The notes beneath the pieces are model-generated. The model was given only the letters and a program-made list of their open reading frames with translations. It was not told the origin of the DNA and ran no database searches. This document shows, piece after piece, positions 28,838 to 64,000 of a DNA stretch of 64,000 nt (positions are counted from its first letter, which is position 1; every line of letters begins with the position of its first letter). This stretch comes from Halomarina pelagica (GTDB taxonomy: Archaea; Halobacteriota; Halobacteria; Halobacteriales; Haloarculaceae). The stretch lies in assembly GCF_024228315.1 (NCBI RefSeq), contig NZ_CP100454.1, positions 2,666,001-2,730,000 on the forward strand. The letters run 5' to 3'. Made by a program: the position numbers and the translations under genes.

Positions 28838-29329
28838 ATGAGCGTCTCGCGTCCCGTCGCGTCGGACCACCAGCTCGCCCGGCTCCTCCAGATCGGGATG
28901 GTCCTGGAGGAGGTCGTCGAGGCCCGGTCGGCGAAGCACGCACAGACGATGGACGGCGACGAACTCGACGCGGAGGTGTACGCGCTCCTCGAGCACGCCG
29001 CCGAGGAGTCGGCGGACCACCGCGCGCGGCTCGAGGCGCTCGTCGACGAACTCGACGCGGAACCGGTCCCGTTCGACCAGATCGAGGCGCTCGTCGAGGC
29101 GCAGTACGGCCAGACGAAGCCCGAGGACTTCGACGGCGTCCTGTACGATCAGCTCTGCAACGAGGAGACGGCGTACAAGTTCTACGACGACGTCATCGCG
29201 GCCATCGAGACCTCGGAGGCGACGTTCAGCATCGACACGAAACGGCTCGTGACCACGCTCTCTCGGATCCGCGAGGAGGAAGCCGAGGGCGTCGAAGAGG
29301 TGACCAAGCTGATGGAGACCCGAGCATGA
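28838..29329 (+). CDS. ferritin-like domain protein
   Basis: 163 residues, almost entirely helical with regularly placed Glu and His (LEEVVEARSAKHA, LEHAAEESADHRARLEALVD, CNEETAYKFYDDVIAAIE, IREEEAEGVEEVTKLM), the pattern of a four-helix diiron bundle of the rubrerythrin/ferritin-like superfamily. It overlaps the DtxR gene by 4 bp (ATGA), suggesting iron- or manganese-linked function under that regulator. A 14-codon ORF (28797-28841, MTGSDTERPRRRRP) ends in the ATGA at this start and could be a leader, but this is weak. Confidence 0.82.
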   Translation: MSVSRPVASDHQLARLLQIGMVLEEVVEARSAKHAQTMDGDELDAEVYALLEHAAEESADHRARLEALVDELDAEPVPFDQIEALVEAQYGQTKPEDFDGVLYDQLCNEETAYKFYDDVIAAIETSEATFSIDTKRLVTTLSRIREEEAEGVEEVTKLMETRA

Positions 29330-29760
29330 ACACGGCCGACCAGTACCTGAAAGCCATCTACCTCGCCCAGAAGTCCGAGGACGGACCCGCCGCGACCGGC
29401 CGCGTCGCCGAACTGCTCGACGTCAGCCCCGCCAGCGCCAACGAGATGATCGGCAAGCTCGAGGCGCGGGGGCTGGCCGACCACGAGAAGTACAAGGGCG
29501 TCTCGCTGACCGACGACGGGATCGTCCGCGCCCGCGACGCCCTCCAGAACTACTGCATCATCGAGCGGTTCCTCGTCGAGGTGCTCGACGTAGAGGAGTT
29601 CCGCGCCGAGGCGAAGACCCTGGAGAGCGTCATCGACGAGACGGTGGCAGAGCGCCTCGACACCATCATCGACCGCGAACCCGCCTGCCCCGACTGCTTC
29701 GACCCCGAGGCGGACGTCTGTGCGCTCCTCGAAGTCGAGTACCCAGAGACGGCTGACTGA
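29326..29760 (+). CDS. DtxR/SirR-family metal-dependent transcriptional regulator
   Basis: 144 residues. N-terminal winged helix (DQYLKAIYLAQKSEDGPAAT, then VAELLDVSPASANEMIGKLE), followed by the dimerisation/metal-binding domain (NYCIIERFLVEVLDVEEFRA). Near the end CPDCFDPEADVC adds three cysteines often seen in archaeal members. It would repress iron or manganese uptake when metal is bound; its neighbour, the ferritin-like protein, is a likely partner. Same operon as 28838-29329. Confidence 0.9.
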   Translation: MNTADQYLKAIYLAQKSEDGPAATGRVAELLDVSPASANEMIGKLEARGLADHEKYKGVSLTDDGIVRARDALQNYCIIERFLVEVLDVEEFRAEAKTLESVIDETVAERLDTIIDREPACPDCFDPEADVCALLEVEYPETAD

Positions 29761-29805
29761 CGGCTCGAAGCCTTGAAGTACGGCGGCGCGGAACCTCAGA
29801 CCGTC

Positions 29806-30061
29806 GTCCCGCGGTGAGCGAATCCAGAGGGTTCGCGCTCCGCCGAGCGAACTGAAGCCCCGTGGTGGTGAGTAAATCCGCAGGATTTACGAGGTACACG
29901 GGACGGGCGAACGAAACGGTCGAAGTCCCGTGGTGGTGAATGAATCTTGCGGATTCGTGAGGTACACGGGGCTGAGAGCGTGAAACGAACGAAGTCCCGT
30001 GGTGGTGAGTAAATCCGTAGGATTTACGAGGTACACGGGCCGAGCGAACGAAGCGAGTGAA
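29806..30061 (+). repeat. tandem ~68-bp hairpin repeats carrying the 5' end of tRNA-Gln
   Basis: Four head-to-tail units begin at 29806 (degenerate, 51 bp), 29857, 29925 and 29994 (68-69 bp each), and the tRNA-Gln gene itself begins one unit later. Each full unit starts with GTCCCGTGGTG (GCCCCGTGGTG in the first full unit), matching bases 2-11 of the tRNA and then diverging, and holds an outer stem CCCGTG/CACGGG around an inner stem such as GTAAATCC/GGATTTAC, then a spacer rich in GAACGAA. The AT-rich palindrome could serve as a TATA element. No spacers or cas genes are present, so it is not CRISPR. Confidence 0.85.
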
Positions 30062-30163
30062 GTCCCGTGGTGTAGCGGCCAATCATAACGGCCTTTGGAC
30101 GTGTGCGGACCGTTCCGGCGCGGAAGACAGCCGTTGACCCCGGTTCGAATCCGGGCGGGACTA
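30061..30163 (+). tRNA. tRNA-Gln (TTG) with an intron of about 30 nt
   Basis: The 7-bp acceptor stem pairs AGTCCCG (30061-30067) with CGGGACT (30156-30162), discriminator A at 30163. T arm CCCGG TTCGAAT CCGGG is perfect. The anticodon stem ACGGC/GCCGT (30088-30092 with 30130-30134) encloses a loop read as CT-TTG-G/A, anticodon TTG at 30095-30097. Between position 37 (30098) and 38 (30129) lie 30 extra bases (30099-30128), the usual site for archaeal bulge-helix-bulge introns; haloarchaeal tRNA-Gln is known to carry one of about 31 nt. CCA is not encoded. Confidence 0.88.
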
Positions 30164-63715: not shown

Positions 63716-64000
63716 GAGAGAAGTAGCGGGAGGTAGATTCGAACTACGCGGACTCGCTTCGCTCGTCCTCTCGTTCAAATCTACTCCGGACGATATACAC
63801 GGAACCACGTAGGGGCGTCGAGCTAAAACTCACGCCCGGAGCGTGGGTCTGAGAGAAGTAGCGGGAGGTAGATTTGAACCACGGTCGCTCATCCCGCTCG
63901 CTCCCTGATTCAAATCTACTCGACGCTATCGTCGTGGCGCACGGCTCACGACTCGCTTCGCTCCTCGTTCGCTGTGTGCGCCACAGAAGATAGCGGGAGG
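63716..64000 (-). repeat. tandem ~133-bp repeats carrying the 3' end of initiator tRNA-Met
   Basis: Reading the minus strand, the segments at 63716-63742 and 63851-63880 contain GTTCGAATCTACC or GTTCAAATCTACC, then TCCCGCTA: the T arm and 3' acceptor strand of archaeal initiator tRNA-Met. A third start, CCTCCCGCTA, is cut by the window end (63991-64000) and may be the true tRNA 3' end. The repeats are 135 and about 132 bp apart, and each has an inverted partner of the T-arm (CAAATCTAC at 63776-63784 and 63911-63919) that would form a long hairpin. The 379-bp stretch after 63621 holds nothing else that looks coding. Confidence 0.72.
63991..64000 (-). tRNA. possible 3' end of initiator tRNA-Met (continues beyond window)
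   Basis: The last ten bases give CCTCCCGCTA on the minus strand, equal to the last stem-3' strand plus discriminator A of initiator tRNA-Met. Being the third of three similar copies, it is either the gene itself or one more partial copy; only sequence past 64000 can decide. Confidence 0.3.

Follow-up and report, generated by a model that had tools for sequence, protein, structure and literature searches.

Tandem hairpin units that copy the 5' end of the adjoining gene precede tRNA-Gln in Halomarina pelagica and recur across haloarchaea

The gene for tRNA-Gln(UUG) in the archaeon Halomarina pelagica is preceded by a tandem array whose units each open with the 5' end of that same tRNA, which raises the question of what these units are and whether they act on the gene that they copy. 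The array was analysed in a window of 64,000 nucleotides (contig NZ_CP100454.1, positions 2,666,001 to 2,730,000 of the forward strand), and positions below are those of this window unless a genome is named. It spans 29848-30072 with a period of 68 and 3.3 copies, is the top-scoring tandem array of the window according to TRF, and is present once in the 4.6-Mb genome. An earlier note on this DNA had described three full units and one degenerate unit in phase with the tRNA, and this arrangement is real, as TRF and the sequence positions agree. Its register also stands, except that the full units begin at an A one base before the starts it had given (29857, 29925 and 29994). The features of the locus are as follows.

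29764-29781, plus strand: promoter-like element CTCGAAGCCTTGAAGTAC (BRE/TATA-like), 5' of the entire array, matching the element of relatives and putatively active
29805-29855, plus strand: degenerate first unit, U0, with tRNA-like start CGTCCCGCGG; the inner hairpin GCGAATCC/GGGTTCGC is kept and the outer-stem 3' arm CACGGG is missing
29856-29923, plus strand: unit 1, 68 bp, with tRNA 5'-end copy, GA/GA-flanked inner hairpin, antisense arm and spacer (TRF; unit model R1, E=1.5e-21)
29924-29992, plus strand: unit 2, 69 bp, with mostly compensatory inner-stem substitutions (TRF; R1, E=7.7e-19)
29993-30060, plus strand: unit 3, 68 bp, with a spacer that runs up to the tRNA 5' end (TRF; R1, E=1.4e-23)
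30061-30163, plus strand: tRNA-Gln(UUG) (RF00005, 49.2 bits; intron-less and intron-bearing relatives compared by eye)
30099-30129, plus strand: tRNA intron, about 31 nt, with ends placed to within 1 nt (comparison with intron-less tRNA-Gln of relatives)

The full units read E-H-E'-S. Segment E, AG(T/C)CCCGTGGTG, is a copy of tRNA nucleotides 1-12 (AGTCCCGTGGTG) that is complete in units 2 and 3 and carries one mismatch in unit 1; the match of 10-11 bases reported earlier is thus genuine and in fact extends to 12. Segment H, an inner hairpin of 8 bp, has GA on either side, and tandem G.A pairs flank its stem. Segment E' (CACGGGAC) is the complement of tRNA nucleotides 2-9, its final bases deviating in units 2 and 3, and S is a purine-rich spacer of about 20 nt (for example GAGCGAACGAAGCGAGTGA). 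Both the outer stem (GTCCCGTG/CACGGGAC) and the 8-bp inner stem proposed earlier are present in the sequence. Because only 0.03% of 6,962 mismatched tRNA/upstream pairs share at least 12 nt, the copies exceed chance. U0 scores only E=0.23 against R1, and its counterpart is intact in a related genome of the same genus (G004). Rfam 15 at the gathering threshold returned zero matches in the window, a weak negative because the same setting overlooked even the intron-bearing tRNA, which ARAGORN without its intron option also missed and RF00005 recovered. An intron of 31 nt is likewise present in Haloferax volcanii tRNA-Gln(TTG) (PMC7714728).

How widely the design occurs was addressed at two scales. 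Searching 59 relatives at the nucleotide level yielded 30 tRNA-Gln loci with their flanks. Genome G004 carries the same array at 86% identity, and seven further relatives (G032, G054, G001, G039, G006, G050 and G015) have a single unit of the same build but with other stems before tRNA-Gln. G038 has one enlarged unit (L007) with extra hairpins between the tRNA-copy arm and its complement. At the remaining loci a promoter-like element mostly stands immediately before the tRNA, and four members of the genus (G002, G003, G005 and G007) are without a unit. A covariance model built from 13 units was then run on 391 haloarchaeal genomes and matched 257 of them at E<=0.01, and these belong to 67 of the 86 genera; matches at 1e-5 or better occur in about 198 of the 391, by hand count of the table. 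The pattern was found in Haloarcula, Natrinema, Haladaptatus, Halorussus and Halapricum, among others. The earlier note had suggested looking in haloarchaeal genomes for such arrays before tRNA-Gln, and the design proves to be class-wide. A degenerate pattern scan of public genomes was enriched in haloarchaeal matches, the scattered bacterial ones being chance-like, and plasmid and phage collections held no copies except one 41-nt Halobaculum plasmid match at the tRNA-Gln 5'-end segment.

Some related repeats were seen elsewhere in the H. pelagica genome. An orphan unit (contig C1, positions 832556-832625, minus strand) lies beside a remnant resembling a tRNA 3' end (GTGGACCCGCCGCGATTCC), and no tRNA was detected there. 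The spacer motif also forms a tandem array of its own (contig C1, positions 1015044-1015210, minus strand), with five copies of GAGCGAACGCAGTGAGCGA at an exact 37-bp spacing. A nested hairpin that has a GAA triloop and two tandem G.A pairs is one possible fold of the spacer motif GAGCGAACGAAGTGAGCGA, which occurs 40 times genome-wide (at most two mismatches) versus 7 times for a reversed control.

The units are matched to the tRNA that they adjoin. At 78 loci, where tRNAs were located with ARAGORN, 100 model matches were obtained, and 98 precede a tRNA on the same strand (57 Gln, 39 Gly with anticodon CCC or TCC, and 2 Thr); the remaining two are at tRNA-Gly loci but on the opposite strand. 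In H. pelagica itself, tRNA-Gly(CCC) has two units too. The outer stem of sense-strand units copies the 5' end of the following tRNA together with its complement and is tRNA-specific, being GTCCCG/CGGGAC at Gln and GCGGCG/CGCCGC, GTGCCG/CGGCAC or GCGCCG/CGGCGC at Gly, with CCCATG/CATGGG in unit and tRNA alike in G054. The unit 5' arm agrees better with its own tRNA than with other acceptors of the same isotype (9.5 versus 8.6 and 9.7 versus 8.7 of 10 positions), a result that none of 1000 permutations equalled. The almost complete tRNA complements of four genomes (173 genes, with three G039 genes left out) were also surveyed for exact 5'-end copies of at least 9 nt within 250 nt upstream. Such copies precede tRNA-Gln(UUG) in all four genomes, tRNA-Gly(CCC) in three, tRNA-Gly(TCC) in two and one tRNA-Glu(CTC), against a null of 0.4%; a probable tRNA-Glu case of the unit design was noted by eye. 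A 7-mer detector for tRNA-end copies used earlier was too lax (14% in the null) and did not contribute to the counts.

Pairing is maintained while the sequence changes. An alignment of 96 distinct units has 97% of its cells paired, and at 14 of 16 base pairs both partners vary, shuffled and slid controls being far lower; this alignment was fitted to the structure and is biased towards it, and a smaller structure-free alignment agrees. The covariance analysis that the earlier note had in view finds covariation in both stems. Its suggestion of selection on structure gains support from these figures, and palindrome-templated mutation could yield the same pattern. The frequency of G.U pairs and two-sided changes does not discriminate between RNA and DNA, as tRNA acceptor stems behave like the units. 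GA occurs on both sides of the inner stem in 92 of 96 units, the inner loop is 3 nt long in 76, and the closing pair is C-G in 91. Loops of 3 nt closed by C-G, of the d(GCGAAGC) type, are typical of very stable single-stranded DNA hairpins, and this form hints at a role at the DNA level without proving it. The consensus has two helices, outer and inner, and an asymmetric internal loop. Substrates of EndA (bulge-helix-bulge) have two 3-nt bulges with a 4-bp helix between them. The tRNA-splicing decoys that the earlier note had listed as a possibility find no positive support. In the kink-turn bound by L7Ae, two helices are joined through a 3-nt bulge and the tandem G.A pairs next to it. Compared with the kink-turn, the GA/GA at the inner helix fits (92/96), but the adjacent C-helix and 3-nt bulge are not evident in the consensus.

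Sequence upstream of the units suggests that they are transcribed. In relatives, the first unit is preceded by a conserved promoter-like sequence (CGAAGCGTTCAAGTG or TAACACTATTGTG); the element that 29764-29781 matches (CGAAGCGTTCAAGTG/TTGAAGTG) stands 5' of the first unit in relatives and directly 5' of the tRNA in a unit-less one. Because this candidate promoter is conserved upstream of the array, the units would be part of a transcribed leader, if the element is active as its sequence implies. Within the genus of G188, each inspected gene for tRNA-Gly(CCC) carries between one and three units, those of G114 being degenerate, and the promoter-like element is roughly 100-250 nt upstream of the unit-bearing gene. 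According to a published start-site map of H. volcanii (PMC4983044), tRNA-Gly(CCC) has an exceptionally long leader of 300 nt and tRNA-Gly(TCC) lacks a nearby start; both belong to the three isoacceptors at which units are commonest. The H. volcanii tRNA-Gly(CCC) leader itself was not identified among the genomes searched, which counts against the leader reading. Positions 28838-29760 of the window hold a 163-aa ORF and then a 144-aa ORF that by eye resembles a DtxR/SirR-type regulator. Also by eye, this coding sequence precedes tRNA-Gln in several relatives, indicating a conserved neighbourhood.

Units are gained and lost as wholes. In Haloarcula-type genomes, the stretch TCGAAGCGTTCAAGTGCGTTCCGTCGATTA leads to the tRNA within 49 nt and with no unit in G012, while the same promoter stretch is followed by one unit in G239, G295 and others and by two in G152 and G364. 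G239 and G012 differ essentially by one 68-bp unit and have near-identical flanks, and thus 0, 1 and 2 units occur between one promoter and the tRNA within a single genus. The earlier idea of a slippage array is partly right because unit number changes by whole units, here between close species, but it does not extend to a design that is class-wide, tRNA-specific and also present at tRNA-Gly. As relatives of the unit occur across the class, the genomes compared indicate that the array is not a local slippage product.

A mirror image exists at tRNA 3' ends. The unit model also matched three 3' flanks of the H. pelagica genome on the opposite strand (L405, L407 and L408), which adjoin tRNA-Arg(CCG), tRNA-Arg(CCT) and tRNA-Ala(CGC) and copy the last 12-13 nt in reverse complement. 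These matches led us to survey 3' flanks. In the four genomes, 75 of the 173 tRNA genes are followed within 250 nt by an exact copy of 12 nt or more taken from their own final 16 nt, compared with 0.06% when the ends of other tRNAs are used. The copies are often 20-27 nt long, reaching from the T-loop to the gene end, and mostly lie 70-140 nt downstream. A complementary arm of at least 8 nt between tRNA and copy was found in 69 of 92 cases (null 18%). Purine-rich motifs in the 3' stretches favour the tRNA-sense strand (139 versus 17), whereas the three 3' units have their GA motif on the antisense strand. No 3'-end copies were found for 28 tRNAs from non-halophilic members of the phylum, a small sample. 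One such copy lies in the window, preceded in tRNA sense by a near-complement, GTAGATTTGAATC:

63859-63879, minus strand: 21-nt exact copy of the tRNA-Met(CAT) 3' end, downstream of the gene, which occupies 63991-64000 and beyond on the minus strand at the window edge

On both flanks the order read outwards from the tRNA is tRNA end, spacer, antisense arm, hairpin and sense copy, which gives the antisense arm two possible partners, the sense copy and the tRNA. Because the unit holds both a copy of the tRNA 5' strand and its antisense, a strand-swapped fold is predicted to be preferred, being the computed minimum in 59 of 70 leader-tRNA pairs and lying on average 2.4 kcal/mol below the canonical sum over all 70; these energies ignore molar KCl and kinetics, and the canonical and swapped folds are close. 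Since E is a copy, the swapped fold arises automatically and is not evidence of selection. On these computed energies, a folding switch is plausible.

We therefore tentatively interpret the array as a structured, transcribed 5' leader of pre-tRNA-Gln, made of tRNA-templated hairpin units that would act in cis, and assign this reading a probability of roughly 0.45. Whole units would come and go by recombination between E copies and the tRNA's own end, and the same exchange with the tRNA end would keep E identical to the tRNA. The least certain step is a possible cis effect of the unit on how the precursor folds and matures. With E' complementary to the tRNA 5' strand and E able to stand in for that strand, two folds would compete: one in which each unit pairs with itself and the tRNA folds normally, and one in swapped register in which the tRNA 5' strand would be trapped. 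As the units would be transcribed first, co-transcriptional folding should favour the productive fold, and an altered transcription start, processing or unit number could shift the balance and with it the yield of 5' cleavage by RNase P. This reading draws on the class survey, the matching to tRNAs, the covariation, the constancy of GA/GA, the upstream promoter, the H. volcanii leader, the swapped-fold minimum and the strand bias of the purine motifs. Against it stand the many species without units, in which tRNA-Gln presumably works. A wider version, in which strand-exchange hairpins templated by tRNAs would form a two-state maturation switch in pre-tRNA leaders and trailers throughout haloarchaea, continually rebuilt from the tRNA gene, seems to us unlikely.

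Other explanations have to be weighed against this leader. The earlier note had offered a duplication of tRNA promoters in which the AT-rich inner palindrome would serve as TATA box, and the AT-rich inner stem of units 1-3 is suitably spaced for this; yet in many relatives the inner stem is GC-rich (GAGCGATCCC, GTCGTCCG), its composition varies freely while pairing is kept, and no TATA/BRE is retained per unit. With a conserved promoter-like element upstream of the array and, in the H. volcanii map, a tRNA-Gly(CCC) start 300 nt upstream, we give this proposal practically no credence. That the unit starts mimic the tRNA 5' end and titrate or stagger RNase P is very improbable: unit start and outer stem do reproduce the leader-acceptor geometry in register, but the T-arm is absent, an inner loop takes the place of the tRNA core, and few tRNAs have units. 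Scars or mini-elements of tRNA-targeting integration, in which E and the tRNA end would resemble attL and attR around a tiny insert excised by a recombinase in trans, are somewhat less far-fetched and still improbable. The direct repeats (29856, 29924, 29993 and the tRNA, and the 3' copies) coincide with tRNA ends, and the 3' copies, from T-loop to gene end, fall within the range of archaeal integrase sites; pTN3-type integrases target tRNA 5' halves (PMC8371274), and integrase-linked 3'-end repeats are known from Haloquadratum (PMC3119063). However, simple integration leaves unexplained why the inverted copy E' adapts to each tRNA, and the near-constant sizes (about 60-70 bp for units, and mostly 70-140 nt for the distance to the 3' copies) are unlike those of normal elements. 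No integrase was recognised by eye among the ORFs listed beside the tRNA, and about 56 bp separate the repeats. Transposition as the whole story was rejected as the main explanation because E' follows each tRNA.

Given the strand-swapped fold predicted in 59 of 70 pairs, we favour a folding or maturation element, and its main rival is a recombinational by-product without cis function, which is quite possible. Short direct duplication of tRNA ends, recombination with the tRNA end and palindrome-templated correction of the arm would then generate the units, and RNase P would remove the RNA. Turnover by presence and absence within one genus, close genomes that differ by whole units, mirror-image copies at nearly half of tRNA genes, some of them antisense, and a C-G-closed 3-nt loop favoured in single-stranded DNA are all consistent with this explanation, which needs fewer assumptions to account for the turnover of whole units and for the mirror image. 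A DNA-level origin also fits better because the T-loop lies within the duplex in the 3' version and three GA motifs are antisense. On the other hand, the 5' units occur mainly at a few isoacceptors across many families, GA/GA is nearly invariant, and the purine motifs are strongly biased to the sense strand, none of which a by-product would readily predict.

The nearest known systems share parts of this design. The rtT repeats of E. coli tyrT have a 178-bp unit that includes the 3' 19 bp of the tRNA and lie downstream of one locus. They resemble the present units as tandem repeats adjoining a tRNA gene, each with a fragment of that tRNA, but the units described here use 5' ends in hairpins of about 68 bp, are class-wide, occur both upstream and downstream, and have tRNA-matched complementary arms, which are not known from rtT. 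The att sites of tRNA-integrating elements (SSV, SNJ2 and pTN3 types; PMC8371274) likewise place a direct repeat of a tRNA end beside the intact gene, whereas here no gene-bearing element lies between the repeats, spacing is short and near-constant, the inverted copy follows the tRNA, and units form tandem arrays. Haloarchaeal PATEs, MITEs and small mobile repeats (PMC3119063) are also short palindromic intergenic repeats, but they are dispersed and keep their own sequence, while here the neighbouring tRNA serves as the template for a palindrome arm. The H. volcanii tRNA-Gly(CCC) leader (PMC4983044) joins an isoacceptor type that bears units to a long transcribed 5' leader, of which the accessible text gives the length only, with no repeat or structure described. 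In the papers that we found, tRNA-copy hairpins are undescribed, which is weak evidence of novelty because the search reached few subscription papers. We know of no family that accommodates the units; an antisense arm that follows each tRNA fits neither rtT nor att sites.

The flanks of tRNA genes are usually regarded as featureless. In four haloarchaeal genomes, nearly half of tRNA genes are accompanied by elements templated by the tRNA's own ends, and at some isoacceptors (Gln, Gly) these elements should fall within the transcribed leader. The recurrence of this tRNA-matched design suggests that tRNA genes have a layer of architecture or control not described before. It may also account for the odd 300-nt leader reported for H. 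volcanii tRNA-Gly(CCC). If the units are a by-product, they expose an unusually regular process of recombination or palindrome formation specific to tRNA ends; if they are functional, they would constitute a new control of tRNA supply in archaea.
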